A stretch of 64,000 nucleotides of DNA, from positions 1-64,000 of the forward strand of contig NZ_FCOK02000005.1 of assembly GCF_001544555.2 (NCBI RefSeq). The letters are read 5' to 3'. This DNA is from Caballeronia udeis (GTDB lineage: Bacteria > Pseudomonadota > Gammaproteobacteria > Burkholderiales > Burkholderiaceae). A model generated the notes under the pieces. It ran no database searches. It saw only the letters and a program-made list of their open reading frames with translations, and had not been told where the DNA came from. Shown in pieces: positions 38,558-55,512 of this stretch (positions are counted from its first letter, which is position 1; the number at the start of each line of letters is the position of its first letter). The position numbers were made by a program, and so were the translations under genes.

Positions 38558-39613
38558 CTAAACCAGCACATCGGAAAACACCCGGTTAGCGAAGTGGGCC
38601 GAATCCGTGCTGCCGTTCAACACGCCCACGGTCTTCAAATCGTCCGCGTACAGCGCGATTTCCTTCTTGAACGCGTCGCCGGTCGGATGATGATGATCCG
38701 TATGGCTCTTGAGCATGGCCGTCAACTGGGCCACGTCCGCTTGCGGTGCGTACTGCGCAAAGATCGTCGCTGCTTCCGCGGGATGGTTCGCAGTCCATTC
38801 CGTTGCGTCGAGCAAAGCCTGCGTCAACGCCTGGGCCGCCGCGCGATCCTTCCTCACCAGTGTCCCACGCACGCCGAGCACGCAGCACACCCGCGTCTGA
38901 TACTCGCCGCACAGGTTATTGGAGACCTCGTACAGATGATCCGATTCCCGCAGCAGCCAGATGGTCGGGTCTCCGTCCGCAATCGCGTGGACCTCGCCCT
39001 TCTTCAACGCCTCGCCCAGCAGGTTGGCGGGGTACTGCCTCCAGCGAACCTCGCTGTCCGGATCAATGCCGATCTTTTTCAGCGTGATAGCAAAGAAGTT
39101 CTTGGTGGGGCTGGCCATGTCACTCACCCCCACAATCTTGCCGCGCAAGCCCGGCAGATCGACAATTCCCGAACTGCGCGTCGCGAGCAGGCGCATGCAG
39201 CCGCCGTGAATGCCGGCAGTAAGCTTGACGTCGAAGCCCTGTTCCAGCGGCTTGATCCACCGCAGCGCCATGCCAACACCGGCATCCGACTTGCCGGTCG
39301 CAATGGCTTCGAGCAACTGGTCCGTCGACCCGGCGAAGTTGATCAGCTCAACGTCCAGGCCACGCTTGGCAAAGAAGCCTTGCTTGACCGCCACCGGTAC
39401 CGGCGCCGTACAAATCGATCCGGCGTTCCACGATAACTTCAACTGTTTCAACGTGCTGTCGTCGGCACGCGCAGGCAGTCCGGCAAGGCCAAACGACGCC
39501 CCGCCAAGTGCCGCAGCCCCAGCGGTCCACGCAGTCTTGCGCAGCCACGCGCGGCGCGAAATATTCTCCGGCACGGCGGCTCTCTCGCCACCGTCGGCAT
39601 CAGGACGATTCAT
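38558..39613 (-). CDS. Tat-signal ABC substrate-binding protein (sulfonate/nitrate type)
   Basis: A 351-residue binding protein of the NMT1/SsuA/TauA fold. A twin-arginine signal SRRAWLRKTAWTAGAAALGG (about residues 18-37) precedes LKLSWNAGSICTAPVPVAVKQGFFAKRGLDVELINFAGSTDQLLEAIATGKSDAGVGM, the family core. GGAG upstream supports ATG 39613 over a TTG at 39616. It is the last gene of a minus-strand set with ATPase, permease and a flavin monooxygenase, and is 85 bases from the ATPase gene. An alkanesulfonate or another sulfur compound is likely; nitrate-type ligands cannot be excluded. Confidence 0.87.
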   Translation of the reverse strand: MNRPDADGGERAAVPENISRRAWLRKTAWTAGAAALGGASFGLAGLPARADDSTLKQLKLSWNAGSICTAPVPVAVKQGFFAKRGLDVELINFAGSTDQLLEAIATGKSDAGVGMALRWIKPLEQGFDVKLTAGIHGGCMRLLATRSSGIVDLPGLRGKIVGVSDMASPTKNFFAITLKKIGIDPDSEVRWRQYPANLLGEALKKGEVHAIADGDPTIWLLRESDHLYEVSNNLCGEYQTRVCCVLGVRGTLVRKDRAAAQALTQALLDATEWTANHPAEAATIFAQYAPQADVAQLTAMLKSHTDHHHPTGDAFKKEIALYADDLKTVGVLNGSTDSAHFANRVFSDVLV

Positions 39614-39698
39614 CAAACATTCTCCACAGGTCGTTCGTTATTGTTGGCTTGTCTACGTGTTCCGGTCGGGTAATTGAGTTGCCAACGCACCCGCCCCC

Positions 39699-40559
39699 TC
39701 AAGCAACCAGACCGAGTAACGCAAGCACTTCGCGCCTGAGTTCAACCAGCCTGGGGTCGTCGCGATGACGCGGATACGGCGCGTCATTGCGCACTTCCGC
39801 CGTCACGCGCGCCGGACGCTCGCTGAAAACGATCACCCGGTTCGCGAGGAACAACGCCTCTTCCACATCGTGTGTCACAAGCAGGACGGAGAAACGCGCA
39901 TCCAGCCACAACTTCACCAGCTCTCCCTGCATGCGCAGCCGCGTAAGAGAGTCCAGCTTGCCAAAGGGCTCATCGAGTACAAGCAACTCGGGATCGTTGA
40001 CAAGCGCGCGCGCCAGCGCAACACGCTGCGCCATGCCCCCGGACAACTGATGCGGATACGCCGCTTCAAAGTCCGTCAGGCCGACCAGTTGCAACGCGGC
40101 GTCGATGCGTTGTTCCGCCGAACGCTCCCCTGCCGGAAGAGGCTCGACCGACCGGTCCCGGCTCCACGGAAACCGCCTGCGCCTTCGCTGCGCCTCCGGG
40201 CCAAGGCCGACATTGGCGCGCACCGTGCGCCACGGATACAAGGTCGGGTCCTGGAACACCACGACCCGCGACGGGTCCGGACCGCGTATGGCGACCCCGT
40301 TCGACGACACCGTGCCAACCGCGGGAGCATCGAGTCCGGCAACGAGTCGGAGCAGGGTCGACTTGCCGCAACCGCTCGGCCCTAGCAACGCGACGAACTC
40401 ACCCGGGGCGACCGAGAAGCTGACGTCGTCGAGAACCGGCAGCGCTGCACCGTGCAGCGAGAACCGGTGGCTGACGTCGCTGACGTCGATACGCGCACCG
40501 GTTGCCGCGGCCTTGAATGCCGGCTGTGCTGCTTGCGCGATGCCTTGCGTGCTTACCAT
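39699..40559 (-). CDS. ABC transporter ATP-binding protein (SsuB/TauB type)
   Basis: A 286-residue ATPase: Walker A GPSGCGKST, Q-loop VFQDPTLYPWRTV, signature LSGGMAQRVALARALVND, Walker B LLVLDEPFGKLDSLTR and switch [15 protein letters not shown]. The WR in the Q-loop and the EEALFLA switch are typical of sulfonate, taurine and nitrate importers. Its ATG overlaps the permease stop (ATGGTAA, 40553-40559), so translation is coupled. Confidence 0.92.
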   Translation of the reverse strand: MVSTQGIAQAAQPAFKAAATGARIDVSDVSHRFSLHGAALPVLDDVSFSVAPGEFVALLGPSGCGKSTLLRLVAGLDAPAVGTVSSNGVAIRGPDPSRVVVFQDPTLYPWRTVRANVGLGPEAQRRRRRFPWSRDRSVEPLPAGERSAEQRIDAALQLVGLTDFEAAYPHQLSGGMAQRVALARALVNDPELLVLDEPFGKLDSLTRLRMQGELVKLWLDARFSVLLVTHDVEEALFLANRVIVFSERPARVTAEVRNDAPYPRHRDDPRLVELRREVLALLGLVA

Positions 40560-41644
40560 TTCAACAACCCCTTCTGCCAGGCGAGTAACCGGTCTCTAAA
40601 GCGGAACAGCAACGTGATCAGCCCGGAGCACATCAGCGCCATCACCAGCAACGCGGCGTACATGTTCGAATAAGCCGCCCATCCCTGCGCCCATTGCAAA
40701 TACCAGCCGAGCCCTGCCTTGACGCCCATCATCTCCGCCACGATCAGCACGGAAAACGACGCGCCCAGTCCCATGAAAAGCCCGACGAACACAGACGGCA
40801 ACGCGGCCGGTATCGCAACCTTCAGGATCAGGAAACCGGGCCGTGCACCGAGCGTGCGGGCGATGTCGTAGAACGCGCTGTTGACCCCGGCCACGCCCGA
40901 CCACGTGAGCACGGCCACGGGGAAGCCGGTGGCGAGCGCGATCAGGAACACACTGGCGCTGAAGCTCGACGGAAAGAAAAAGAACGCCAGCGGCAACCAG
41001 GCGGTGGCGGGCAATGGACCGATCAGTCTCAATACCGGATGCAGCCAGTACCCCACCACTCGCGACCAGCCGATGCCGACTCCCGTCACAAAGCCCACCA
41101 CGGCTCCGATCACATAACCGTAAGCAAGCAATCCGAATGAATGGGCGATGCTTGAACCAAGGCGCGGGAAATCATCGAAAAAAACGGCGATCAGCGATTG
41201 CGGCGGGGCAAAAAACGGCCGCGGCAGCCATTCGAGTTTCGCAGTGAGTACTTCCCAGGCCGTCACACCCACCGCGAGCGCGACGAGCCAGGGCATGGCC
41301 GCGAGCCATCGTTCGGCGCGTGATGGAGACGTATCGGGCTGACGCGCCAGGAGGCTTCTGCGGGCCGTCACGCCTATCAGCAGCGCGGTCGCCGCGAGCA
41401 CCAGCTTGAGGACCAGAAGATGACTGGTGTAGGGCCAGTCACCGGCGTCAGGCCACCAGTGCGTCAGACCTGCGCTGACAAGCCACGCGAGCGCGGCCAG
41501 CCACGCCGGCAGCAGGCTCCTGCTCGTCTCGCTCGAAGACGCCGCGCTTACGCGGGCCGGTTGCGTCCGGATACCCGCCGCTTGCGGCTGGAAGCCGACG
41601 CCGGGGTGTCCGGAGGCTGAATCGAAATGAGGAGTGCCGGACAT
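40553..41644 (-). CDS. ABC transporter permease (SsuC/TauC type)
   Basis: A 363-residue permease, about 100 longer than usual. The extension carries two extra hydrophobic segments near the N terminus (LLPAWLAALAWLVSAGLTHW and LLVLKLVLAATALLIGVTA) before the standard six-helix core, which contains the docking loop FYDIARTLGARPGFLILKVAIPAALPSVFVGL. ATG 41644 is followed by a plausible start; an upstream ATG at 41686 would add 14 residues. Co-translated with the ATPase. Confidence 0.87.
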   Translation of the reverse strand: MSGTPHFDSASGHPGVGFQPQAAGIRTQPARVSAASSSETSRSLLPAWLAALAWLVSAGLTHWWPDAGDWPYTSHLLVLKLVLAATALLIGVTARRSLLARQPDTSPSRAERWLAAMPWLVALAVGVTAWEVLTAKLEWLPRPFFAPPQSLIAVFFDDFPRLGSSIAHSFGLLAYGYVIGAVVGFVTGVGIGWSRVVGYWLHPVLRLIGPLPATAWLPLAFFFFPSSFSASVFLIALATGFPVAVLTWSGVAGVNSAFYDIARTLGARPGFLILKVAIPAALPSVFVGLFMGLGASFSVLIVAEMMGVKAGLGWYLQWAQGWAAYSNMYAALLVMALMCSGLITLLFRFRDRLLAWQKGLLKW

Positions 41645-41819
41645 GATGGGGAAGGTCCTCGTTACGTTGAAAGAAGCTCCGTGCACAGCATTGGAGCCCG
41701 GGGTTTCCGCAGCGCGTTACATTGCTACAAACGCCAAGACTAGCGACGCTTCGGTCTCTTAACAATTATTCGTTTGCGATATGTTTATGAGCTCACGCGC
41801 TTTATCGATTGCATGATTG

Positions 41820-43262
41820 TTAGGCGATGCCGGCCTTCTCGCCTTGCCACACGCTATGCGCGTAGAGCGTCTCGTTGAAATCCGGAGGCACGTCTGCGTT
41901 CAGGCGGACTTCGTGACGATCGAGATCGGCAAGAAAAAGATCGCGGCTGATCCGGCTCACCACCGCCGGAATATCGCGCTTCATGCTTGGCACGTCGCCT
42001 ACCGGCACGCCGAAGCTGACAAGACCCGCAGGGTTGTACACGTGAAGGTTCGCTAAATGAGGCGCTGTTCCAGGGATCTTCTCCAGATATTCGTGCGCCG
42101 CGCCGAGATACGGATGAGCGCCGAGATAGTCGTCGCGCTCGTGATCCTCGGGAACGTACCGGTCGCGCCACAAAAGAATGTCCTTCGATACCGCTGAGAG
42201 CTCGGGGCGCACAGCCGGGTCGACAAGGTAGCCCGTACCCGCGATTGCAAAGTCGAACTGGAACTGCTCGTTGCCCACCCGCGCTGCAATACGCCCACCC
42301 TCCACGCTGGCGTGGCTCCAGGCCGCGCCAAGATGCAGATGGAAGTTCGGATGCTTCGTCACGCGTTCAACGGCATCGACCGGCGGCGTGGAGCCTGCCT
42401 TCCGGAAGCGCAACGCCTGACGCCAGCGGAAAGCGTCCGGTAACTGCGGGTAGTTGTCGTACGCACCCGGATACGCTCTAGTACGCGTAATAGGCGCGGC
42501 GGGAACCGCGTCACGACGCACAAAGAGATGCACCTGCGCGGCGCCCGCTTCGAGTGCCGTAGCGGCCGCGTTGAAGGCAGACGCCGCACCGCCGATCACC
42601 GCTACCGTTTTATTCCGCAGCGCCTTGAAATCGATAGCCTCCGAGGTATGCGCGTAAAGCGTGCGCGGCAGGTTCTCGTGCAGCACAGGCGGTACCTGCG
42701 CAGCGCCGTTGCCGGCGACTCCGTTGCACAGGACGACCTTGCGTGCCGTCTCTACATGCTCGTGACCGGCGGCGTTCAGCAGACGCAAACGGAAGTGCGA
42801 GTCCACCGGTTCTATCCGCGTGAGACGTGTGCCATAGCGAACCGGGATCTTCAGGAAGTGGCGATACCACCCGAGATACTCGGCCCAGCGCGCGCGGGGA
42901 ATCCGATCGATATCCGCATACGCCGCGGCTCCCCAGCGCGCTTCGAACCATGCCTGAAAGCTCAATCCCGCGACGCTGAGCTCCGGCCCTATGAGCGTCT
43001 TCGGTGTACGCAGTTTGTTCATGCGCGCCCGGTTGAGCCATACGCCGGCACCCGCTTCGTCAGTTGCCGCATCGATCACCGACACCTTGCCAATACCCGC
43101 GCGCCGCAGCGCGAAAGCGAATGCGGCGCCGGTCTGTCCACCGCCGACGATCACGACGTTGTGGTCGATACCCGCCCGGTCCGGCACCCAGTTATCCGGG
43201 TCGGGACCTGACAGGCGCAGCGCTTCGAGCGCGTTTGCATCGGGATTAGAGGTGGTTGTCAT
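41820..43262 (-). CDS. FAD/NADPH-dependent monooxygenase-like oxidoreductase
   Basis: A 480-residue flavoprotein with two Rossmann sites. The FAD site reads HNVVIVGGGQTGAAFAFALRRAGIGKVSVID (about residues 34-63) and the NADPH site reads KTVAVIGGAASAFNAAATALEAGAAQVHLFVRR (about residue 200). YAHTSEAIDF just before the second site resembles the fingerprint region of class B flavin monooxygenases. It heads the operon of a sulfonate-type ABC transporter (176-base gap), so the imported compound is probably its substrate, with oxygenation next to sulfur or nitrogen possible. It is divergent from a porin gene. No strong ribosome site is seen at ATG 43262. Confidence 0.82.
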   Translation of the reverse strand: MTTTSNPDANALEALRLSGPDPDNWVPDRAGIDHNVVIVGGGQTGAAFAFALRRAGIGKVSVIDAATDEAGAGVWLNRARMNKLRTPKTLIGPELSVAGLSFQAWFEARWGAAAYADIDRIPRARWAEYLGWYRHFLKIPVRYGTRLTRIEPVDSHFRLRLLNAAGHEHVETARKVVLCNGVAGNGAAQVPPVLHENLPRTLYAHTSEAIDFKALRNKTVAVIGGAASAFNAAATALEAGAAQVHLFVRRDAVPAAPITRTRAYPGAYDNYPQLPDAFRWRQALRFRKAGSTPPVDAVERVTKHPNFHLHLGAAWSHASVEGGRIAARVGNEQFQFDFAIAGTGYLVDPAVRPELSAVSKDILLWRDRYVPEDHERDDYLGAHPYLGAAHEYLEKIPGTAPHLANLHVYNPAGLVSFGVPVGDVPSMKRDIPAVVSRISRDLFLADLDRHEVRLNADVPPDFNETLYAHSVWQGEKAGIA

Positions 43263-43542
43263 TGCGTGAGGTCGATCAGGAAAGGGAGAGATGGCCGAGA
43301 TATTGAAAAGGGATACGCGTGCTGGCAACCAAGCAATTCAACTTTGCTTAGACGCTTTTTGCGGAACACATCGACCAGGGAAGCGGCGCTTACATCTTAT
43401 TTTCAAATCACGGCGTCAGTACATTACAAATCAAGATCATATGCATTACGAAGTTTAAATTCATCGTTCATTCCAGCGTCGCCAAACCCTAATATAGGGA
43501 TCCGAAAGATTCGTTAAAACCACCTGGAACAAGAGGACAACA

Positions 43543-44780: not shown

Positions 44781-45602
44781 TCATTTCGACGAATACTCCT
44801 GATGCCACGCGAGCAATTGCTTTGAGGGCGGCATATGCCACTTGTTGCCCTCATCGATGAGAAAACTGCTCCGGTGCCACTCCTTCACGATCTTGTCGAA
44901 TGCCGCGACCGTGTCTGTCTCGCCCTTGCGCACCCAAATTACCGAAGGCGATGGGATCAGTTGATCAGGCATTGGCGACTCGTAGTCCTGCCATTCGCCG
45001 GAGGTACTGGCGAGCCGCGCCTGAATGCCGGGCGTCACATGAACCGACGCCACGCAAGTCCCGCCGCGCAGCGCCAGCAGCGCTTCGGGCATGCCCTTGA
45101 AACCCCTGACCTGTGCCCCGTATTGTTCAATCAGCGGACGCGTGTAGTTGCTGCCTTGCGAAACGCAAACCGGCTTGCCGCGGAGATCGCTCCAGTTGTG
45201 AATACCCGCCCCCTTGTGAACCATCGCCGAGCCGCCGATCTCCTCGAACGGCGTGGGCACATAACTCAATATCTCGTCGCGCTCCTTCGTGTATTGCATG
45301 CTCGCGATCAGCGCATCAACCTTGCCTTGCTGAAGGAATTGCACCCGGTTCGGCGGCGTGACTTCCACGGCTTCAAACTTTACGCCGAGGCGTTTAGCAA
45401 GGTCCTGGGCAAGTTCGACGTTGTAGCCGACAGGCTTGCGGGTCTGCGGGTCGAGTGAACCGTAGGTGCCGTCGAGCACGACCCCGACCGTCAGCGTGCC
45501 GCGTGACTTGATCCGGTCGAGGGTGGCGTCGGCGTGAGCGCCTTGCGAGAGTGCAAGCACAGTCAGGGTAAAGCTCAATAAGGTGGTGAAGCGAAATTTC
45601 AT
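44781..45602 (-). CDS. Polar amino-acid-type ABC substrate-binding protein
   Basis: A 273-residue periplasmic protein of solute-binding family 3: signal peptide (24 residues, ending AHA), DATLDRIKSRGTLTVGVVLDGTYGSLDPQTRKPVGYNVELAQDLAKRLGV, and DLRGKPVCVSQGSNYTRPL. It contains two cysteines, one in KPVCVSQ and one in GGTCVASVHV. Both are shared by its paralogue at 50331-51167, to which it is clearly related along its whole length. ATG 45602 overlaps the rhodanese stop (ATGA). It is the last gene of the five-gene minus-strand operon and presumably feeds the ABC importer formed with 49126 and 51169-52708. Ligand probably a sulfur-containing amino acid. Confidence 0.88.
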   Translation of the reverse strand: MKFRFTTLLSFTLTVLALSQGAHADATLDRIKSRGTLTVGVVLDGTYGSLDPQTRKPVGYNVELAQDLAKRLGVKFEAVEVTPPNRVQFLQQGKVDALIASMQYTKERDEILSYVPTPFEEIGGSAMVHKGAGIHNWSDLRGKPVCVSQGSNYTRPLIEQYGAQVRGFKGMPEALLALRGGTCVASVHVTPGIQARLASTSGEWQDYESPMPDQLIPSPSVIWVRKGETDTVAAFDKIVKEWHRSSFLIDEGNKWHMPPSKQLLAWHQEYSSK

Positions 45603-47245
45603 TGGCTGGGACTTTCTGTAGCGGGTGTATCGATACGGAAAACAGCGAGCTCGTCCGGCGCGCACTGCGCGATCAGACCTGTTTCCCAATCCAGATACTG
45701 GCGGGCGGCGTCGAGGTTGCCATCGTGGCGGTCGTGAACAAAAAACAGGTAGTCGATGTGCGCCGCATCGGCAGGAAGATCGGGCGTAGACACCACGGGC
45801 AGGCCCGCTTTTTTCCAGGTGTCGATGCCGTTGGCCGCGAGATACAGCGAGGTGAAACCCCACCCGCGCAGGTCGGTAGCCGCGATGTTCGCAACCGCCG
45901 GTTCATCGGCGAATAACAGCAGCGTGTCGCCCGGGGCGGCTTTGAGCGCCGCCAGCGTCCTGGCGAGTTGCGGACGAATCGACCAGTGCGCACCAGCAGC
46001 ATGTTCCCGCCGGTAAGCCGCGCTCGATCGCAAATCGAGCAGCAGCACATGGCCCGTCGCCGCCTCGCGCAGCGCCGCTGTATCGAGCAGCGGCAAGGAT
46101 GATTGCACCGGTGCAACCCGCTTGCCAACGTGTAGCGTAGTTGCATTGAGGGCATCGACCAAAGCGGCTTTAAAGCCTAGCTGTACGAGCCACGTAGCAA
46201 TCACGGGAGCACGTACGCCGTCGTAATCAACCAGCAGCACGCGGGCACGCCGCACGCCAATGGTCTGGTCAGTTGCCTGTACCAATTGCCCTCCCGGTGC
46301 GTGGATGGCGCTCGGCAGACCGTCGCGCGCAAACTCTTCCGGCGTGCGGACATCGATCAGAAAGGTCGTCCGATCTGGATCAGCAAGCCATTCCTGCGCA
46401 GCCGAAGCGTCGAGCGTCGCAACGCCCAAGCGCGCAGCAAGCGTAGCCGCACGCGTGCGCGCCTCGGCAACCGATGCTTCGTCCAAGACCTCCGGGTAGC
46501 GGCGCTCGCTGCCATGTTCGAGCTTGAGCCCCGCGAGCGCCCAGCCTTGCGTGCCATTCTCCAGCGCAATCACCGGATTCGGCACACCCAGATTGCGCAA
46601 GGTCTGCGCGCCAATAATGCTGCGCGTGCGGCCGGCGCAATGAATCACGATCGGCGTCGCAGGGTCGGCTACAAGCGTTCCGATCCGGTATGCCAGTTCT
46701 CCGTTCGGCACGGGAACAGCACCAGGGATCGTCATCTTTCGATGTTCATCGAGCGTGCGTCCATCGAACAACGCATGAGCCTGTCCTTTTTCGATCAGAA
46801 CCGCAAGCTCCTCCGGCGAAAGATGCGGCGTCCCATGCGCGTGCTCGACGAGTTCGCCAAAGGTCTTCGATGGCAGGTTCACGCCTTTAAACAGCGTATA
46901 ACCCGCGGCCAGCCAGCCGCGTGCGCCATCGTGCAGCACAGAGACTTTGGTGTAACCGAGCGCGCTCAGGCGCCGTGCCGCGAGTACCGCAATACTTGTG
47001 CTATCGGCGTATTCGCCATCGTCAAGCAGGACGATCCGTGTGCCGGGTCCCGGCACCAGTCGCGGCGCGTCTATTTCCAGCCGGCTGTAGGGCAACGGGG
47101 TCGCGAAGAACGGATGCCCTTCGCCGAACTGCCCGGCTTCGCGGACATCGAGCAAGGCGATTTCGGCTTCGTCATTGAGCCATGCGCGGACAGTGGAGGC
47201 ATCGACGAAAGGCACATCAGCCACATCGTTTCGGATTGAGGTCAT
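45599..47245 (-). CDS. Four-domain rhodanese-like sulfurtransferase
   Basis: A 548-residue cytoplasmic protein made of four rhodanese homology domains, starting near residues 15, 143, 280 and 384 (marked by LLDVRE, LFDGRT, LIDVRT and LLDLRS). Only the second keeps the catalytic cysteine, Cys203 in IHCAGRTRS. The corresponding loops of the others read LLDDGEYAD, LVDYDGVRA and LFADEPAVA and cannot hold a persulfide. Rhodaneses move sulfane sulfur to thiols or cyanide. It lies 34 bases after the cystathionine beta-lyase-like gene and overlaps the binding-protein gene. It probably accepts sulfur from cysteine or persulfide breakdown. Confidence 0.9.
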   Translation of the reverse strand: MTSIRNDVADVPFVDASTVRAWLNDEAEIALLDVREAGQFGEGHPFFATPLPYSRLEIDAPRLVPGPGTRIVLLDDGEYADSTSIAVLAARRLSALGYTKVSVLHDGARGWLAAGYTLFKGVNLPSKTFGELVEHAHGTPHLSPEELAVLIEKGQAHALFDGRTLDEHRKMTIPGAVPVPNGELAYRIGTLVADPATPIVIHCAGRTRSIIGAQTLRNLGVPNPVIALENGTQGWALAGLKLEHGSERRYPEVLDEASVAEARTRAATLAARLGVATLDASAAQEWLADPDRTTFLIDVRTPEEFARDGLPSAIHAPGGQLVQATDQTIGVRRARVLLVDYDGVRAPVIATWLVQLGFKAALVDALNATTLHVGKRVAPVQSSLPLLDTAALREAATGHVLLLDLRSSAAYRREHAAGAHWSIRPQLARTLAALKAAPGDTLLLFADEPAVANIAATDLRGWGFTSLYLAANGIDTWKKAGLPVVSTPDLPADAAHIDYLFFVHDRHDGNLDAARQYLDWETGLIAQCAPDELAVFRIDTPATESPSQ

Positions 47246-47279
47246 TTGAGCAGGGTCGCAATGAGAGGTGGGCAGCGAT

Positions 47280-48467
47280 TCAGGACAGCACGCTGCGAAA
47301 TGCCTGTGCGAGGTCGAGAATGAGATCGTCCGCGTCTTCCAGCCCGATATGCAACCGGATCACGGCTTCCTGTCCCTGCCAGTAGCTATGTGTGCGCAAG
47401 CGCCGCGGCGGGGCGATCAGCGCGAGGCTTTCATAACCGCCCCATGACGCGCCAAGGCTGAATAGCCGCAACGCGTCGATGAAAGCGGCAGCGAGGCTGG
47501 TATCGGCATCACGCAAGGCGAACGAGACCAGCCCGTTCGCGCCGTGGAAATCACGCGACCACAATGCGTGTCCGGGATCCGTGGCCAACGCCGGATGGAA
47601 AACGCGCGTGACCTGGCGTACGCGTTGCAGATAGGACGCCACGGCAAACGCGCCGCGCGCGTGTTGCGCGAGGCGTACGGGCAGCGTACGGATGCCGCGC
47701 AATGCAAGGTAGGCGTCGTCGGCGCTGACGCTCAAGCCCAGTGCGTCGTGAGCCTCTCTCAAGCGCTGCCCGATTGCTGCATCCGCGGTCGATACCGCGC
47801 CCTGCATCAGGTCCGAATGTCCGCCCAGATACTTTGTGACGGCCTGGATGGAGATATCCGCGCCCAGCGCCAGCGGTTGATAGAGCAAGCCCGCGCCCCA
47901 CGTGTTGTCGGCGGCGAGCAGGACCCCTTGCTCGTGAGCAAAATCCGCAAGCGCCGGGAGATCGACAATCTCGTACAGGAACGAACTCGGCGACTCTGCA
48001 TAGATCAGGCGCGTGTTGGCCTGAAGCAGCTTATGCGGCAAGCCGTCCGCCGCGCTGAAATAGCTGAAGGCAACACCCAGCCGCGTCAGCAGCGGTTCGA
48101 TCCGTTCACGCACGGGCCCATAAACGCCGTCGTGCACGAGCACGTGATCGCCCGGCGACAACAAGCCGATGAACACCAGTGAGATTGCGGACAGACCTGA
48201 CGGGGCAAGCAGCACGTCACGCGCCCCTTCCAGTTCGCCGATGGCCGCTTCAAGCGCCCGGTGCGTTTGCGTGCCATGCCGCCCATAGGTGCTGACCGCC
48301 TCCCCCGCGTCGCGCCGTTTATGCAGCGCCGCCTGGCTCGAGGTGCTTTCGAAACGCACCGTGCTCGTGCGTTCGACCGGCACGTTGACTGGCGCAGTGC
48401 CATCAACAAACGCCGGCGCACCGGCGCGCATCAGGCGCGTCGCTTTGTGCTGCACTGGGGCATTCAT
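47280..48467 (-). CDS. Cystathionine beta-lyase-like PLP enzyme
   Basis: A 395-residue Cys/Met-metabolism PLP enzyme. It has the phosphate-binding YGRHGTQTHRALEAAI (about residues 61-76), SGLSAISLVF, the aspartate of AADNTW (Asp187) and the PLP lysine Lys212 in AVTKYLGGHSD. The C-terminal SLGASWGGYESLA is typical of cystathionine beta-lyase rather than gamma-synthase. It would release pyruvate, ammonia and a thiol or sulfide from cystathionine, cysteine or an S-conjugate. Its ATG overlaps the stop of the thiol dioxygenase gene (ATGA). With a rhodanese and a thiol dioxygenase in the same operon, a cysteine-S-conjugate or desulfhydrase role is likelier than methionine synthesis. Confidence 0.88.
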   Translation of the reverse strand: MNAPVQHKATRLMRAGAPAFVDGTAPVNVPVERTSTVRFESTSSQAALHKRRDAGEAVSTYGRHGTQTHRALEAAIGELEGARDVLLAPSGLSAISLVFIGLLSPGDHVLVHDGVYGPVRERIEPLLTRLGVAFSYFSAADGLPHKLLQANTRLIYAESPSSFLYEIVDLPALADFAHEQGVLLAADNTWGAGLLYQPLALGADISIQAVTKYLGGHSDLMQGAVSTADAAIGQRLREAHDALGLSVSADDAYLALRGIRTLPVRLAQHARGAFAVASYLQRVRQVTRVFHPALATDPGHALWSRDFHGANGLVSFALRDADTSLAAAFIDALRLFSLGASWGGYESLALIAPPRRLRTHSYWQGQEAVIRLHIGLEDADDLILDLAQAFRSVLS

Positions 48468-49093
48468 CAGCCAACCGCCTGCGTGCCGCGATGCATGTGG
48501 GTTGTGTTGTAGCGCACCACACGTCCTGTATCGAGTTCATAGCCGAGCCGGCCGGAAAGTGTTTCCAGCGGCCGCCCGTAGAGATGGAAATGCAGCGTGG
48601 GTCTTTCACCCGTTACATGGATGCTGTGAATGTCTTCGGGCAGAAACGCGATCGGTGTGCCCGGACGCACCACGACTTCACGGTCGAGATCGAGTGTGGC
48701 GCGTTCGGGGTCGGCACCGTCGTCTGTACGGTTATAGACACGGTTCAGTTCCTCGCCCTCAAGTGCAGCGATGACCGCCCATGTATCGTGGTTATGCGGA
48801 ATCGTGGTCTTGCCGGGCAGCAGCGAGTTGAGATAAAGCGCGAACCCGTCCTCGCCGGGATTCAGCCGGTATCGTGTCGACGTGTCCCCGCTGCCCGCTT
48901 GCGGCGGCGGGAAATCTGCGGCGGAGAACAACTCGGCGTGATCCGCGGCAAGCGCCTGCAGATGATTGCTGATGGCATCGAGCGCGGCCCGCGTCACGCC
49001 CTGCTTCTCCACAATATGACGTACATGGTCCAGCAATGCGGTAACAGCGGCCTGGCGTTCGCCAATCTGATCGGGTATGGAGGTTGCGGTCAT
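48467..49093 (-). CDS. Cysteine dioxygenase-family thiol dioxygenase
   Basis: A 208-residue cupin of the cysteine dioxygenase group. The iron ligands are visible as His100 and His102 (TIPHNHDTWAVI) and His156 (LPEDIHSIH). STRYRLN (about residue 72) provides an Arg near the position that binds the substrate carboxylate in cysteine dioxygenase. The enzyme adds both oxygens of O2 to a thiol to give a sulfinate. The substrate may be cysteine, 3-mercaptopropionate or another thiol; the HNHDTW variant leaves this open. It lies 32 bases downstream of the ABC ATPase gene and overlaps the next gene by ATGA. Confidence 0.85.
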   Translation of the reverse strand: MTATSIPDQIGERQAAVTALLDHVRHIVEKQGVTRAALDAISNHLQALAADHAELFSAADFPPPQAGSGDTSTRYRLNPGEDGFALYLNSLLPGKTTIPHNHDTWAVIAALEGEELNRVYNRTDDGADPERATLDLDREVVVRPGTPIAFLPEDIHSIHVTGERPTLHFHLYGRPLETLSGRLGYELDTGRVVRYNTTHMHRGTQAVG

Positions 49094-49125
49094 GTCAGGA
49101 TAGGTTCGTAGTAGTTTTGCAAGAA

Positions 49126-50019
49126 TCAGGGGGTGGCCAAAGCCAGAGCGGCACCGCTTCGCGAGCGTTTGCGCAGTGCGCGCCGGTCCTCGCCGCGTGC
49201 GCGTTGCAGAAACAGGCGCGTGCGTTCGTTCTCAGGGGCGCTGAAAATCTGCGACGGCGCGCCGTGCTCGACAATCACGCCGCCCTCGGTGAAAAACACT
49301 TCGTCGCTCACGTCTTCGGCGAAGCGCATTTCATGCGTGACCAGCACACAGGTCTGGCCGTCATCCACCAGTTCGCCAATCACTGTAAGCACTTCGCCCA
49401 CCGTTTCCGGATCGAGCGCAGAGGTCACTTCGTCGAAGAGAATCAGGTCGGGGCGCATGGCAAGCGTTCGTGCAATAGCGACACGCTGCTGCTGGCCTCC
49501 GGACAGCTCGCCCGGATACGCATGGGCCTTGTCAGCCAGCCGCACCTTCGCCAGCAGCGCGTGCGCGTCGTGCTCGGCTTCGGCGCGAGAGCGCCCGAGC
49601 GCGCTCATCGGCGCAATGGTCAGGTTGGCGAGCACGTTCAGGTGCGGGAACAGGTTGTACTGCTGGAACACAAAGCCGATGTGCTTGCGCAGCGCGATTT
49701 TCTGCGCGTCGGTGCGCTGCGCGCGGACATCGATTCCATCCACGTGCACGTCGCCCTGCTGCGGCGCGATGAGGCCGTTGATGACACGTAAAAGCGTTGA
49801 CTTGCCCGAGCCCGAAGGCCCGATGATGGAGACGGCTTCGCCTCGCCGCACGCTCAGGTCGATACCCTTGAGCACGTGCACCGGGCCGTAGGAGAGGTGG
49901 ACATCGCGCAATGAAACCAGCACGGGATCGGCACTCCCTGCGGCACCCTGGCGCGACGGTGCATACGCAAGCGCCGACGCATCCTGAAGCGGGTCGAGCG
50001 CAAGCGCAAGTCGATTCAT
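49126..50019 (-). CDS. Amino-acid ABC transporter ATP-binding protein (GlnQ/CysC-type)
   Basis: A 297-residue ATPase of the polar amino acid class: Walker A GPSGSGKST, Q-loop VFQQYNLFPHLNVLANL, signature LSGGQQQRVAIARTLAMRP, Walker B LILFDEVTSALDPE and switch VTHEMRFAEDVSD. A 30-residue N-terminal extension and a basic tail lie outside the core. No ATPase gene occurs in the divergent permease operon (50331-52708), so this is almost certainly the engine of that transporter. A 22-codon ORF (50016-50084) ends in an ATGA overlap with its start. Confidence 0.92.
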   Translation of the reverse strand: MNRLALALDPLQDASALAYAPSRQGAAGSADPVLVSLRDVHLSYGPVHVLKGIDLSVRRGEAVSIIGPSGSGKSTLLRVINGLIAPQQGDVHVDGIDVRAQRTDAQKIALRKHIGFVFQQYNLFPHLNVLANLTIAPMSALGRSRAEAEHDAHALLAKVRLADKAHAYPGELSGGQQQRVAIARTLAMRPDLILFDEVTSALDPETVGEVLTVIGELVDDGQTCVLVTHEMRFAEDVSDEVFFTEGGVIVEHGAPSQIFSAPENERTRLFLQRARGEDRRALRKRSRSGAALALATP

Positions 50020-50084
50020 ACGACCTCTTCAGGTGTTGTTACAGGAGCGCTGACCGCATGTTTCGAAAGAATCAACTGTGTCAT
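50016..50084 (-). CDS. 22-residue upstream ORF coupled to the ABC ATPase
   Basis: A short frame begins MTQLILSKHAV and ends TTPEEVV. GAGAAGGAAA is well spaced before ATG 50084, and its TGA overlaps the ATG of the ATPase gene (ATGA, 50016-50019). The strong ribosome site and the overlap suggest it is translated and controls translation of the operon. There is no hydrophobic segment, no run of a single regulatory amino acid and no cysteine, so it is not a classical attenuator leader. It could also be a tiny protein in its own right. Confidence 0.5.
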   Translation of the reverse strand: MTQLILSKHAVSAPVTTPEEVV

Positions 50085-50330
50085 CGCGGGTTTCCTTCTC
50101 AAGCGCACGAAAGCATGCTGGAGCGAAGATTCTAAGAACCATGCCCCTTTTCGATAACCAAGCATTCGTCGAATAGATAGCAGCCCGCTTGCTAACGACG
50201 CACCAAACCCTCGCGTGCGTTTTTTTGAGGCCTTAATCCACCACGCGGTGATTTGCTTAGCAGATTCGCTTCCTTGGCGATGCACCGGCAATTACCTATT
50301 CTGTCTGGCTCTCCTGCCGTTTTCATCTCC

Positions 50331-51167
50331 ATGATCCTGACGAACCTCCGCCGCCTGATTGCTCTCATTGCGCTGGCATCGGCCATGACCGCGTCCTTTG
50401 CCGCACACGCGGATGCCACCCTCGACAAAATCAACTCCCGCCATGAACTCACGGTGGGGGTGTTGATCGGCGGCAGTCCATTCGGTTCGCTCGATCCCGC
50501 GACCCAACAACCCCGCGGTTTCAATGTAGACCTGGCTAACGAACTCGGTAAAAGACTGGGCGCGAAGGTGCAACTGGTGTCCGTGTTGCCTTCCACGCGG
50601 GTCCAGTTTCTTCAGCAGGGCAAGGTCGACATCCTGATCGCGAACATGGAATACAACGCCCAGCGCGGCGAGATACTGGACCACGTAGCGACACCCTATT
50701 ACCGGGTCGGCGGCACGGCAATCACCCTTAAAACCAGCGGTATTACGCGCTGGGAAGACTTGCGCGGCAAGCCGGTGTGCATCTCTCAAGGCAGTAGTTA
50801 TATTCGCCCCATAGTGGAACGCTACGGCGCGATTCCGCGGGCCTTCCCAGGCTCGTCCCAGTCATTGCTCGCGTTGCGCGGCGGGAGTTGCGTCGCGGCC
50901 GTCCATGACGCTGCACCGCTGCTTTATCCGTTATTGCAGAGCGACCCGGAGTGGCGTGACTACCGTCCACTGCAACCGGAGATAGAGCCTGCGCCGTCGG
51001 TGATCTGGGTGCGTCAAGGCGAGCACGACACCGCCGCGAAGCTGGATACGTTCGTGCGCGACCTGCATCGCAACGGCTGGTTTATCGCGACCGAAGCGAA
51101 GAACGGCCTCAACCCGCCCTCGCCCGCGCTAGCCGAGTGGCATCGTCAATTGCCTGCGGAGAACTAG
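50331..51167 (+). CDS. Polar amino-acid-type ABC substrate-binding protein
   Basis: A 278-residue family-3 binding protein: basic start and signal peptide ending AHA, then DATLDKINSRHELTVGVLIGGSPFGSLDPATQQPRGFNVDLANELGKRLG and DLRGKPVCISQGSSYIRPI. It is a full-length paralogue of the protein at 44781-45602. ATG 50331 gives a proper signal peptide, while the longer frame from 50253 would bury it. The first permease follows after one base. Divergent from the ATPase operon. Confidence 0.88.
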   Translation: MILTNLRRLIALIALASAMTASFAAHADATLDKINSRHELTVGVLIGGSPFGSLDPATQQPRGFNVDLANELGKRLGAKVQLVSVLPSTRVQFLQQGKVDILIANMEYNAQRGEILDHVATPYYRVGGTAITLKTSGITRWEDLRGKPVCISQGSSYIRPIVERYGAIPRAFPGSSQSLLALRGGSCVAAVHDAAPLLYPLLQSDPEWRDYRPLQPEIEPAPSVIWVRQGEHDTAAKLDTFVRDLHRNGWFIATEAKNGLNPPSPALAEWHRQLPAEN

Positions 51168-51168
51168 C

Positions 51169-51912
51169 ATGGACACGCTGCTGCACGGCTTCATCATGGC
51201 GACAGCGCGTCTTGGGCTTGACTACCGTTTCCTGCTCGACGACTACGAGCGCGTGCCATTCGTTCAGGGCCTGGGCGTGAGCATCGAGATCATTGTCTCG
51301 ACCATGACAGCCAGCGCCGTTGCCGGGCTCGTGTTGCTGCTCGCACTGCGCGGCCGCAACCGGCTGGTCTCCGGGCTGGCGCGCGGTTTTATTGAAGTCA
51401 CCCGCAACACGCCCACGCTGGTGCAGCTCTACTGCGCGTTTCTCGTGCTGAACATGCTGATCACGCAATGGCTGCATGCGCGCGGTATTGATAACCCGTT
51501 CAAGCCCTTCTTCTGGGTCGTGCTTGTATTGTCACTGCACAAGGCGGCATTTCACGCAGAAGCGCTGCGTGCAGGCTTCGACGCACTGCCTTCTCAAACG
51601 CTGGAAGGTGCGGCTTCGCTTGGGCTCAGCCGTGCCACACGTTTCTGGCGCATCGAGCTGCCGCTCGCGTTGCGCGCGGCCCTGCCGGCGCTCGTCAACA
51701 ACATGGTGGAACTGGTGAAAGCCTCTGCGGTGGCATCGGCTATTGCGGTGGGGGACGTGACCTACCAGTCCATCATGATCTGGACCCAGCGCGACAATGT
51801 GCTTGCGTTGATGCTGCTGATTCTCGCCTTCTTCGGCGCGCTCACCTGGCTGGTCACGCTAGCCGGCCGCTGGCTCGAACGCCGTTACAGGGTTCCCGGC
51901 TATGGCTACTGA
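51169..51912 (+). CDS. Amino-acid ABC transporter permease (first)
   Basis: A 247-residue inner-membrane permease of the HisM/GlnP class: FVQGLGVSIEIIVSTMTASAVAGLV, GFIEVTRNTPTLVQLYCAF and the docking loop LEGAASLGLSRATRFWRIELPLALRAALPALVNNMVEL. It starts one base after the binding-protein stop and overlaps the next permease by 11 bases, a tightly coupled operon. Confidence 0.92.
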   Translation: MDTLLHGFIMATARLGLDYRFLLDDYERVPFVQGLGVSIEIIVSTMTASAVAGLVLLLALRGRNRLVSGLARGFIEVTRNTPTLVQLYCAFLVLNMLITQWLHARGIDNPFKPFFWVVLVLSLHKAAFHAEALRAGFDALPSQTLEGAASLGLSRATRFWRIELPLALRAALPALVNNMVELVKASAVASAIAVGDVTYQSIMIWTQRDNVLALMLLILAFFGALTWLVTLAGRWLERRYRVPGYGY

Positions 51913-52708
51913 TTCGGCTTCCACCGGTGGCAAGCTCGCCATCACGCGCTTGCCACCGGGCATTTATGGCGTTGTTGGCGTGCTCGCGGCGGGCGCCGCG
52001 TTGTGGTCGCTCGCGCCCGAGGCCGGCTCGCGTGGCGAGACACTGGCGCGCTTCGTTGAATGGACGCCGGCACTGCTCCACGGCTTCGCCATGAACGTGC
52101 TGATCAGCATTGGCGCGATTTTCATAGGGACGGTGCTTGGGCTGCTTGCGGGCGCGCTAGCGATGTCGAAAACATTCGCGGGGCGGCTGGCAAGAGTGTG
52201 GATTGTCGCATTTCGCAATGCGCCGTGGCTTGTGCTGATCTATTTCACCACCTATGTGTTTCCCTTCGAGATCCATGCGTTCGGCACCATTGTGCCGTTT
52301 CCCGACTGGCTCAAAGTGATGCTTGGGCTCGCCCTGCCGGCGAGCGCAAACATAGCGGAAGTATTTCGCGGCGCGGTGGCGTCCATCCCTTCCGCGCAGT
52401 GGGAAGCCGCTGCTTCGCTTGCGTTCTCCCGCCGGCAGATCCTGCTGAAAATAGTCGTGCCGCAATGCGTGCGCCGTATGTTGCCGCCGTGGATGAACGT
52501 GTACGCCATCATCACCATGGGCACCGCGCTGTCGTCGCTGGTCGGGATCCACGACCTGCTGGACACCGCGCAGATCGCCAGCAGTACGGTTGCACGCAGC
52601 AGCTTTACCGTGCTGACCTACGTTGCGACGCTCGTGATCTTCTTCGCGTACTGCTATCCCATTTCGTGGCTCACGCGCACATTTGAAAAGCGGCTGAGGA
52701 CCGCATAA
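51902..52708 (+). CDS. Amino-acid ABC transporter permease (second)
   Basis: A 268-residue partner permease: LLHGFAMNVLISIGAIFIGTVLGLL, IVAFRNAPWLVLIYFTTY and the docking loop QWEAAASLAFSRRQILLKIVVPQCVRRMLPPWMNVY. It forms the heteromeric channel with the product of 51169. The operon carries no ATPase gene of its own; the one at 49126 fits. Confidence 0.92.
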   Translation: MATDSASTGGKLAITRLPPGIYGVVGVLAAGAALWSLAPEAGSRGETLARFVEWTPALLHGFAMNVLISIGAIFIGTVLGLLAGALAMSKTFAGRLARVWIVAFRNAPWLVLIYFTTYVFPFEIHAFGTIVPFPDWLKVMLGLALPASANIAEVFRGAVASIPSAQWEAAASLAFSRRQILLKIVVPQCVRRMLPPWMNVYAIITMGTALSSLVGIHDLLDTAQIASSTVARSSFTVLTYVATLVIFFAYCYPISWLTRTFEKRLRTA

Positions 52709-52853: not shown

Positions 52854-53873
52854 ATGAAACGCTTTCTCTCCTCTCTGCGCGCGTGCGCCGGCTTTGCACT
52901 CTTCGCCGTGGCCGCGAGCGCCGCTCATGCGCAGTCGCGTGAAGTCGTGATCGGCTATCAGGACATGGTCGTACCGTGGCGTTACGCTCAGGTGAGCGGC
53001 GCAGTCGAAAAAGCGACGGGCTACAAGGTGACGTATCGCAAGCTCGGAAGCGGCGCCGATGTGATCCGCGCGCTCGCATCCGGGTCGATCCAACTGGGTG
53101 AAGCCGGTTCCAGCCCGATCGCGGCCGGCCTCTCGCAGGGCGTGGATATTTCCCTGTTCTGGATCCTCGACAACATCAACGACGCCGAAGCACTCGTTGC
53201 CCGCGACGGCTCGGGCGTGACCAGGATAAGCGATCTCAAGGGCAAGAAGATCGGCCTGCCGTTCGTCTCCACCTCTCACTTCCACGCGCTGGTCGCGTTG
53301 CAAAACGCCGGGGTCGATCCGTCGACTGTAAAGATCCTGAACCTGCGGCCGCCTGAAGTGGCCGCGGCGTGGGAACGCGGTGATATCGACGCCACCTATA
53401 TCTGGGACCCGGTGCTGGCGAAGGTCAAGAAGAACGGCAAGGTGCTGATTACATCGGGTGAAGTCGCGAAGGAAACCGGCAAGGCGACCTTCGACGGTTT
53501 CGCCGTCAGCCGCAAGTTCGCGCAGGATAACGGCGCGTTCGTCACGGGCCTGGTCAAGGTGCTCGCCGCTACCGACGCTGAGTATCGCGACAACAAATCT
53601 GCCTGGATAGCCGGGTCGAAGCAGGTTCAGGACGTGGCGCAGGAATCGGGGGCAACCGCTGCCGACGTGCCCGCCAGTCTTGCGCTTTACGCCTTCCCGA
53701 CCGTCACCGAGCAGGCTTCACCGGCCTGGCTTGGCGGCGGCGCTCAGTCGGGCGCCGCGAAGTCGCTGGCCGCCACCGCAGCCTTCCTGAAGACGCAAGG
53801 CACGATCCAGAACGTGCTGCCCGACTATTCGGTCGGTGTCGACCCACGCTTCGTACAGCATGCATCGCGATGA
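52854..53873 (+). CDS. tauA: Taurine/sulfonate ABC substrate-binding protein
   Basis: A 339-residue periplasmic protein: signal peptide ending AHA, then [77 protein letters not shown], which is the TauA pattern. ATG 52854 gives the signal peptide; the frame extends to 52803 without a better start. Its stop overlaps the tauB start (ATGA). It binds taurine or a closely related sulfonate in the periplasm. Confidence 0.9.
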
Positions 53874-54661
53874 GCACGCTGGACATTCGCGGCCTCGGCG
53901 TGACCTATGAGGGCGCGACAACGGCTGCCCTCGCGGGCGTCGACCTGCAGATCGACAGCGGCGAGTTCGTGGTTGCGCTCGGCGCCTCCGGATGCGGCAA
54001 GACAACCTTGCTGAACTGCCTCGCAGGCTTCATCGATCCGACTGCCGGCGAGGCGCGCCTGAATGGTGAGCTGATCGTCGGGCCCGGCGCCGAACGCGGC
54101 GTCGTGTTTCAGAAATATGCGCTGATGCCCTGGCTGAATGTGATTGACAACGTCGCGCTCGGACTTCGTTTTCAGGGCGTCGGACGGACGCGGCGTCTTG
54201 AGATAGCACGCGAAACGCTGGCCCTGGTCGGCCTGGAAAAGCACGCGAACGCGCGGGTGTATGCGCTTTCGGGCGGCATGCAGCAACGCGTGGGGATAGC
54301 ACGCGCGCTTGCGAGCGATCCGCAGGTGCTGCTGATGGATGAACCCATGGGCGCGCTCGACGCGCTCACCCGCGAGACCATGCAGGAACTCGTGCTCGAT
54401 GTCTGGGGCCGCACCCGCAAGACCATTTTCTTCATCACGCATAGCGTGGAAGAAGCGCTGTTCCTCGCAACGCGGCTGGTCCTGATGACGCCGGGTCCCG
54501 GCCGCATTGCCGAAAGCCACGCGTTGCCGTTTGCGCGGCAATTTCTCGAATCGCGCGACGCACGCGCGGTGAAGTCGTCGCCCACGTTCATTGAATGGCG
54601 CGAGCGGCTGGTTAGGCGACTGCACGACGGATCGCACGCTACGCTGCAGGAGGTGGGTTGA
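53870..54661 (+). CDS. tauB: Taurine ABC transporter ATP-binding protein
   Basis: A 263-residue ATPase: Walker [11 protein letters not shown]-loop [17 protein letters not shown], signature [19 protein letters not shown], Walker [17 protein letters not shown] and switch [25 protein letters not shown], all TauB-like. It overlaps tauA by four bases and tauC by one (TGATG). Confidence 0.92.
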
Positions 54662-55512
54662 TGAGTTCGATCGACTCGCTGCCGCCTGCTGTGACCGTGT
54701 CTCAAGTACAGCGCCGCCGCAAGCCACGGCGTGGCCTTCCGGGCGAAGGCCCGACTGCAGTCCTGAGTGTGCTGTCGGTGGCCGCCATTGCCGCGCTATG
54801 GTGGGCGGCAACGTCATTTCATTGGGTGGCGCCGCTTTTCCTGCCCTCGCCGCAAGCGGTGTGGAGCGCATTCATCGACGCGTGGAATGGCCGTATTCAA
54901 GGCGGTCTGCCGCTGTCCGAGCATTTGTTGTGGAGCGCCATCCGCGTGTTCGGCGCGTTCGCGCTAGCGAGCGTGACGGCTGTGCCTGTCGGCATCCTGA
55001 TGGGGGTCAGCCGCATCGCACGGGGCCTGCTCGATCCACCGTTGGAGTTTTACCGGCCCCTGCCGCCGCTCGCTTATTTACCGCTGGTCGTGATCTGGTT
55101 CGGTATCGATGAAACCGCGAAGCTGATCGTGATCTATCTCGCCTGCTTCGCGCCGATTGCGATGGCGGCACGGGCAGGTGCCCGGAGCGCTACCGCGGAA
55201 CAGGTGAACGCAGCGTATTCGCTTGGCGGGAGCTTCGCACAGGTCGTACGTTTTGTTGTTCTGCCGGCTGCGTTGCCCGAGATCCTGACGGGCTTGCGGA
55301 TCGCTATCGGGTTTGGGTGGACGACGCTTGTCGCGGCCGAGATGGTGGCGGCAACGGCCGGACTTGGGCAAATGGTGCTGAACGCATCGAGCTTTCTCAG
55401 AACCGATGTCGTGGTGATGGGCATCGTGTTGATCGGATTGATCGCGTGGACTTTCGATCTCGGTATGCGCGCACTGGAGCGGCGGCTGGTGCCCTGGCGC
55501 GGGAAGCTTTAA
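54661..55512 (+). CDS. tauC: Taurine ABC transporter permease
   Basis: A 283-residue permease with six helices: FLPSPQAVWSAFIDAW, FYRPLPPLAYLPLVVIWFGIDETAKLIVI and the docking loop NAAYSLGGSFAQVVRFVVLPAALPEILTGLR, matching TauC. AGGAGGT just upstream selects ATG 54661. The taurine dioxygenase gene tauD that usually follows is absent; a toxin-antitoxin pair lies downstream instead. Confidence 0.92.
   Translation: MSSIDSLPPAVTVSQVQRRRKPRRGLPGEGPTAVLSVLSVAAIAALWWAATSFHWVAPLFLPSPQAVWSAFIDAWNGRIQGGLPLSEHLLWSAIRVFGAFALASVTAVPVGILMGVSRIARGLLDPPLEFYRPLPPLAYLPLVVIWFGIDETAKLIVIYLACFAPIAMAARAGARSATAEQVNAAYSLGGSFAQVVRFVVLPAALPEILTGLRIAIGFGWTTLVAAEMVAATAGLGQMVLNASSFLRTDVVVMGIVLIGLIAWTFDLGMRALERRLVPWRGKL

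Follow-up and report, generated by a model that had tools for sequence, protein, structure and literature searches.

Caballeronia udeis (Burkholderiaceae) probably scavenges sulfur from cysteine S-conjugates with a gene set that is split over two divergent transcription units. The set lies at positions 44781-52708 of the window, that is, of the whole stretch of 64,000 nucleotides analysed here (contig NZ_FCOK02000005.1 of assembly GCF_001544555.2). Its eight genes, all intact open frames (Table 1), stand in the divergent arrangement that an earlier note, made from the sequence alone, had described. The minus strand encodes the ATPase of an ABC importer of the PAAT type, a thiol dioxygenase, a pyridoxal-phosphate enzyme resembling cystathionine beta-lyase, a four-domain rhodanese and a solute-binding protein (SBP1). 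The plus strand encodes a second solute-binding protein (SBP2) and two permeases (PER1 and PER2), with no ATPase of its own. This reading is carried by gene content, linkage, family membership and the retention of catalytic residues. In the order of steps that we infer, both binding proteins would feed a single PAAT importer made of PER1, PER2 and the ATPase, and the lyase would beta-eliminate the imported R-S-cysteine, giving pyruvate, ammonia and a thiol R-SH, presumably a small mercapto-acid; protein families and retained residues suggest both steps. By analogy with its sister enzyme, the dioxygenase may then convert the thiol to an unstable sulfinate that would yield sulfite and a carboxylic acid. 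Finally, the single active cysteine of the rhodanese could accept the sulfite (or a persulfide), as pairing and fusion of the two proteins suggest.

Table 1. Features of the locus and of related loci; positions are those of the window unless a locus (L) is named.
Feature	Position	Strand	Evidence
ATPase of PAAT-type ABC importer, 297 amino acids	49126-50019	minus, first of minus set	Pfam ABC_tran 1.8e-37
Thiol dioxygenase, mercaptosuccinate-dioxygenase-like, 208 amino acids	48467-49093	minus	8vni E 1e-45
Pyridoxal-phosphate enzyme, cystathionine-beta-lyase-like, 395 amino acids	47280-48467	minus	TIGR01324 371.9 bits vs cut-off 365.9
Four-domain rhodanese	45599-47245	minus	Pfam Rhodanese, 4 stretches; 1yt8 E 8e-112
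SBP1, family-3 solute-binding protein	44781-45602	minus	Pfam SBP_bac_3 3.9e-21
Divergent intergenic region with conserved blocks	50020-50330		17-sequence alignment
SBP2, family-3 solute-binding protein	50331-51167	plus	Pfam SBP_bac_3 1e-20
PER1, PAAT permease	51169-51912	plus	Pfam BPD_transp_1; TIGR01726 49.3 bits vs cut-off 42.2
PER2, PAAT permease	51902-52708	plus	Pfam BPD_transp_1; TIGR01726 50.3 bits vs cut-off 42.2
Flavin/NAD(P) oxidoreductase, Lys_Orn_oxgnase/Pyr_redox_3 kind, linked accessory	41820-43328	minus	Pfam
Fused dioxygenase-rhodanese	L095 13822-16014	minus	
Fused dioxygenase-rhodanese	L056 12880-15081	minus	

Pfam and NCBIfam back the labels given to the binding proteins (family 3), the ABC ATPase, the BPD permeases, the Cys/Met pyridoxal-phosphate enzyme and the rhodanese; the dioxygenase has no match in either at E ≤ 0.001. 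Taken together, a binding protein of family 3, two TIGR01726 permeases and one ATPase, all linked, make up a PAAT importer. The best NCBIfam match of the ATPase is of the TcyN/GlnQ type and lies below cut-off. Genes of the minus set had been said to be joined by ATGA overlaps or short gaps. An ATGA overlap does join the rhodanese and SBP1 genes, and the remaining gaps are short (32 and 34 bases), but dioxygenase and lyase meet in TGATG, a 1-base overlap, and not in ATGA. In the plus set a 1-base gap is followed by an 11-base overlap, and the stretch between minus and plus genes measures 311 bases.

The two sets belong together because ATPase, lyase and permeases are linked to the dioxygenase across many related loci. 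At E ≤ 1e-10, 35 of the 150 genomes searched within the family (own included) have a dioxygenase match. Contigs were scanned for the best 80 of 92 loci, among which the nearest relative is that of Caballeronia sordidicola (92%). Linkage was counted in 39 loci of the window's dioxygenase clade; five (L050-L054) had been dropped as copies, and two Variovorax loci (L099, L101), which stand at the base of the clade and have a different importer, were not counted. Near the dioxygenase gene are found PER2 (34 loci), PER1 (33), a rhodanese of at least 35% identity (32) and the flavoenzyme of Table 1 (14). Routine separation of the ATPase or enzymes in homologous loci, named in the earlier note as what would speak against the set, is not what the genomes display: 35 of the 39 loci keep both ATPase and lyase, and four neither. 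In 26 of these 35, lyase and dioxygenase genes overlap, by either 1 base or 4. Seven of the 39 have the lyase inverted and the ATPase 1.4-3.0 kb from the dioxygenase, and in two (L060, L079) parts are absent at the contig end. Relative to the dioxygenase, PER2 is divergent in 19 loci and co-directional in 15. The order binding protein, permease, permease, ATPase, dioxygenase, lyase runs in one direction in loci of Cupriavidus, Herbaspirillum, Rhodoferax, Alcaligenaceae and Bordetella, some of these co-directional loci having an aminotransferase gene in between. The divergent split is one layout of a common gene set. Conservation in other genera means that the arrangement is not due to chance, and the co-directional order found there supports the original proposal of one importer common to two divergent sets.

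The dioxygenase had been assigned to the cysteine dioxygenase family. This holds at the level of the fold and no further, the nearest solved relative by sequence being a mercaptosuccinate dioxygenase (Msdo; 8vni, 47% identity). 3-Mercaptopropionate and cysteine dioxygenases match only at E 0.005-0.33. An AlphaFold2 model built from 36 aligned sequences (mean pLDDT 92.4) likewise has 8vni as its best fold match in the PDB (TM-score 0.83/0.89, 44% identity), followed by 3-mercaptopropionate dioxygenase (0.72/0.78, 18% identity, range 17-20%). All 36 sequences share six residues, H100, H102, H156, H168, H170 and Y172. The first three are candidate iron ligands, and an HxHxYG motif spans 168-173; R174, which completes HxHxYGR, is present in 43/45 rows of the window clade and 24/24 of the Msdo clade. 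In a tree of 112 rows, from which the Advenella Msdo was left out, the window enzyme falls inside a clade of 42 rows (support 96/88) with members from Caballeronia, Paraburkholderia, Cupriavidus, Herbaspirillum, Bordetella, Rhodoferax, Variovorax and others. The solved enzyme 8vni sits in a separate Msdo clade of 22 rows (100/100), and the branch uniting the two has weak support (92/70). Separate from both are an alphaproteobacterial group (44 rows) and a group of fused proteins (4 rows). Sequences of the window and Msdo clades share a median of 42% and a maximum of 49% identity, and two genomes (G077, G113) each carry one copy of both. With Msdo the window enzyme has in common the three-histidine iron site, the HxHxYGR motif and adjoining genes for a lyase, a rhodanese and a PAAT importer. 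On present evidence it would act like Msdo, yet it stands outside the clade of the characterised enzyme.

Two other identities were considered for the dioxygenase and rejected. As to cysteine dioxygenase proper (PF05995), Pfam gave no CDO_I match, the one such match of the genome lying elsewhere, on contig C27. As to 3-mercaptopropionate dioxygenase, the match was at E 0.005-0.006 by sequence and at 17-20% identity by fold. In a group of 47 loci from Acetobacteraceae/Roseomonas and related organisms (L102-L148), only the dioxygenase-rhodanese pair is present and all 47 have Leu in place of Arg174 in the YGR motif, so that the substrate may differ there.

The lyases of the window clade (40 rows, some identical) retain the equivalents of E. 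coli MetC K210, D185, Y56, Y111, S339 and W340 in 40/40 and that of R372 in 39/40. MetC R58, R59, D116 and Y338 presumably form the distal substrate site, which contacts the distal half of cystathionine. Here R59 has become H in 38/40, D116 is E, R or K in 40/40 and Y338 is A in 40/40; the window enzyme itself retains R58 and has H, E and A at the other three positions. A distal site of the E. coli MetC kind is not retained in full by the window lyase. Those of Msdo-type loci carry A58/R59 (22/22), in contrast to R58/H59 in the window, and because distal-site residues differ by locus type, the lyase type matches that of the dioxygenase. The genome also encodes a lyase that scores 724 in NF005456, a cystathionine beta-lyase model, against a cut-off of 500 (window lyase, 363), which would leave the window copy free for another substrate. 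A lyase tree, in which long branches met at MetC, was unused for relationships. The organosulfur role put forward in the earlier note gains support from this lyase with its catalytic residues, from the dioxygenase of the mercaptosuccinate kind and from the neighbouring tauABC-type genes.

The rhodanese does comprise four domains, as had been proposed, with one catalytic-type cysteine loop only. It matches 1yt8, which we take to be PA2603, along its length. There are only two cysteines, Cys203 in the CAGRT loop of domain 2 and Cys528 outside such a loop; a single C.GRT loop per protein is the rule in 119/119 matched rhodaneses above 450 amino acids (copies and fused forms counted). The pairing with the dioxygenase extends to Alphaproteobacteria: in the 47 alphaproteobacterial loci a rhodanese follows the dioxygenase in 46, and the remaining one stops at the contig end. 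In four loci (L048, L049, L056 and L095, the last from Cupriavidus neocaledonicus), moreover, a dioxygenase of the family and a four-domain rhodanese form a single protein of 730-745 amino acids, with HDH and HxHxY motifs and one NCAGRT loop; the L095 protein has all four Rhodanese stretches. A search of 300 genomes across the taxonomic order matched 28 (own included) and, with two G644 rows (frames of 523 and 540 amino acids) left out, added five loci (L164-L168) where a single open frame encodes both parts. When 369 genomes sampled across the class were searched with the dioxygenase part of the fused protein, five matched (own included), and no match lay in a long fused frame. The literature search on fusions of cupin or thiol dioxygenases with rhodaneses turned up no evident description of them, and the rhodanese fusions in the accessible text of one report are persulfide dioxygenases (PMC6060420). 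The pairing of dioxygenase and rhodanese, found repeatedly within the family and as a fusion in nine relatives, is apparently new. Such cupin fusions provide a direct handle on sulfite versus persulfide transfer between two active sites. A second rhodanese of the same genome (G000, contig C16, 111875-113428) is 40% identical to that of the window over residues 12-532. It adjoins an alkanesulfonate-monooxygenase-like gene (below cut-off) and a gene for an SsuA-family binding protein (over cut-off); an alkanesulfonate pathway there would likewise yield sulfite.

The binding proteins fall into types. In a MAFFT alignment of 79 rows, start variants and copies included, those of the SBP2 type have D (in VHDA) at a column occupied by V or I in those of the SBP1 type and by E in three rows of a third type; an upstream Arg is common. 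The Asp of SBP2 aligns with the D of AncQR and is, we assume, the residue typical of amino-acid binders, holding the alpha-amino group. From this one residue, SBP2 may be assigned an amino acid as its ligand, and SBP1 a compound lacking an alpha-amino group; the latter is tentative because it depends on MAFFT, HMMER gapping the SBP1 stretch differently. Ten loci, two of them copies of one contig, carry one gene family within or beside the set that was not called in the window. Its members are L098 4061-5305 (an Aminotran_1_2 aminotransferase, aspartate-transaminase-like with 524 bits against a cut-off of 617), L076 7812-9149, L100 6322-7581 and seven others. Loci L096 and L097 have a gene in common, GlcD-like in the L096 copy. 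Aminotransferase and GlcD-like genes fit the handling of amino and oxo/hydroxy acids and prove nothing. Automatic gene calling, which let antisense frames win in places, served only for spotting such accessory genes.

The earlier note knew of no described pathway with this exact set, and here it was mistaken. In Advenella mimigardefordensis, MIM_c37410-37480 bring together a LysR regulator, mercaptosuccinate dioxygenase, cystathionine beta-lyase, rhodanese and a PAAT importer; growth on mercaptosuccinate is restricted by deletion of the dioxygenase gene and suppressed by deletion of the LysR gene (PMC5373536). The msdo loci of Advenella mimigardefordensis DPN7T and Variovorax paradoxus B4 resemble the window in their Msdo-like dioxygenase, cystathionine beta-lyase and rhodanese-related sulfurtransferase, and that of Advenella has the PAAT importer as well. 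By contrast, the LysR gene beside the Advenella set has no counterpart among the genes scanned around that of the window. Among 23 Msdo-type loci, all have the rhodanese, 22 the lyase (the 23rd ends at the contig end) and 17 a PAAT importer in front. Where present this importer is co-directional with the dioxygenase, whereas the window has its permeases divergent from it, and the importer proteins are 26-54% identical to those of the window. The msdo-type gene set is thus already published, and the window clade, with dioxygenase and lyase types of its own, is a new branch of it.

Other systems share parts of the design. The 3mdo-tst pair of Pseudomonas (PA2602-PA2603; P. protegens c14110-c14100) has, as the window does, a thiol dioxygenase followed by a TST/rhodanese. 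Unlike the window set, its description, as far as the accessible text goes, names no lyase or importer, and the 3-mercaptopropionate dioxygenase is a relative by fold only (18% identity, TM-score about 0.72). Persulfide dioxygenase-rhodanese fusions, for instance in Paraburkholderia phytofirmans, show a similar pairing in that a non-heme iron sulfur dioxygenase is joined to a rhodanese. Their iron is held, in the available descriptions, by two His and one Asp, whereas enzymes of the window type are cupins with three conserved His and go with a four-domain rhodanese. The breakdown of S-(2-succino)cysteine (scm/yxe cluster, 2SL lyase) possibly has a substrate in common with the window, being a salvage of sulfur from a cysteine adduct. 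Its published routes N-acetylate first and release N-acetylcysteine, whereas the route proposed for the window would be non-acetylating. A term search of the available text of two S-(2-succino)cysteine papers found neither mercaptosuccinate nor dioxygenase.

S-(2-Succino)cysteine, from which beta-elimination would yield exactly 2-mercaptosuccinate, is the guess at the substrate that we favour most. It is possible, if doubtful, that window and Msdo loci alike encode an oxidative cysteine-S-conjugate pathway for spontaneous adducts such as S-(2-succino)cysteine, with the dioxygenase product passed directly to the rhodanese, as fusion of the two in relatives suggests. If so, succinated cysteine would have a breakdown route without acetylation, and one would understand the presence in soil bacteria of a dioxygenase for mercaptosuccinate, a polymer precursor on which growth has been the setting of work on this enzyme. 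Taken as one route from import to sulfite uptake, the set would also give a natural role to a dioxygenase accompanied by a C-S lyase and an amino-acid importer, and this reading predicts ligands for both binding proteins.

To be sure, a number of points weigh against the scavenging of S-conjugates. The dioxygenase is patchy, with matches in 5 of the 15 genomes sampled in its own genus, and the 47 alphaproteobacterial loci (many on short contigs) gave no match to a window-type lyase or importer. The window lyase scores above the TIGR01324 cut-off for cystathionine beta-lyase, and its substrate may just be cystathionine. The scheme assigns no role to the flavoenzyme. In P. protegens, 3-mercaptopropionate levels did not change significantly on deletion of tst, a rhodanese gene (PMC12947264). 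Two further points also favour a free-thiol catabolic locus as in Advenella and Variovorax, where the importer would take up mercaptosuccinate or a similar compound and the lyase would have an unrelated cysteine or cystathionine role: four of the 39 loci (L084, L085, L089, L092) keep the dioxygenase without lyase or importer, and dioxygenase and lyase distances correlate (0.85, 1653 pairs) no more than those of dioxygenase and ATPase (0.87, 1378 pairs), an unspecific signal that indicates joint inheritance of a block and not a common substrate. The sister locus has, moreover, its mercaptosuccinate function in the published text, and SBP1 carries V at the position of the D of amino-acid binders. 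Such a locus nevertheless seems rather unlikely, for 35/39 window-clade and 22/23 Msdo-type loci retain a lyase of the kind, its gene commonly overlaps that of the dioxygenase, its type goes with that of the dioxygenase, and SBP2 retains the amino-acid signature.

A different chemistry would be that of a cystine/persulfide system, in which the lyase would turn imported cystine into cysteine persulfide and dioxygenase and rhodanese would oxidise and sort the persulfide sulfur. The dioxygenase-rhodanese fusions do mirror the architecture of persulfide dioxygenase-rhodanese proteins, as the available text presents it (PMC6060420), and in NCBIfam both ATPase and PER2 match cystine importer proteins best, always below cut-off. 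However, a dioxygenase 44-47% identical to the mercaptosuccinate enzyme and retaining HxHxYGR makes this quite improbable. We also know of no persulfide-acting cupin of the window's dioxygenase clade, which counts against the same view. Finally, the two operons could be unrelated neighbours by chance, each side of the divergent region having separate conserved blocks and a taurine-type ATPase (53870-54661) belonging to the next gene set on the plus strand. This is hardly credible, since a PER2-type permease runs co-directionally with the dioxygenase set in 15/34 loci and most relatives lack tau genes in the nearby stretch examined. Sulfur scavenging from cysteine S-conjugates by a shared importer remains the reading we prefer.

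The divergent region was aligned in 17 sequences including the window, three longer ones being omitted. Its conserved blocks are ATTCTAnGAA, AACCAA and TTTGCTTAGCAGATTC, the last at 50252-50267. A sigma-70-like promoter was searched for between the two sets and was not found. At up to 3 mismatches, TTTGCTTAGCAGATTC matched 45 places in the genome against 50 for a reversed control, that is, without enrichment, and a narrower version of the pattern matched the window alone. Another element of the region, AACCAAGCA, recurs reverse-complemented upstream of the flavoenzyme, in a block common to L069-L072, and the similar stretch GAATGCTTCTAA precedes tauA; this recurrence hints at a single regulator.

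The flavoenzyme follows the lyase or SBP1 gene in several loci of the window clade. Its listed open frame has a TTG start at 43328, with an in-frame ATG 22 codons further on; the query began one codon past this ATG, which is irrelevant to the searches. Adjoining it is a set for an NMT1-type binding protein, an ATPase and a permease (38558-41686, minus), so that three importers lie within about 17 kb. The taurine-type ABC transporter genes (52854-55512, plus) stand directly downstream of PER2, with a binding protein over the TIGR01729 cut-off, and such genes follow PER2 in six Caballeronia loci as well (L069-L074). About 9 kb from SBP1 there is, in addition, a gamma-glutamyltranspeptidase gene (34263-35990, minus), whose product could supply glutathione S-conjugates to the pathway.

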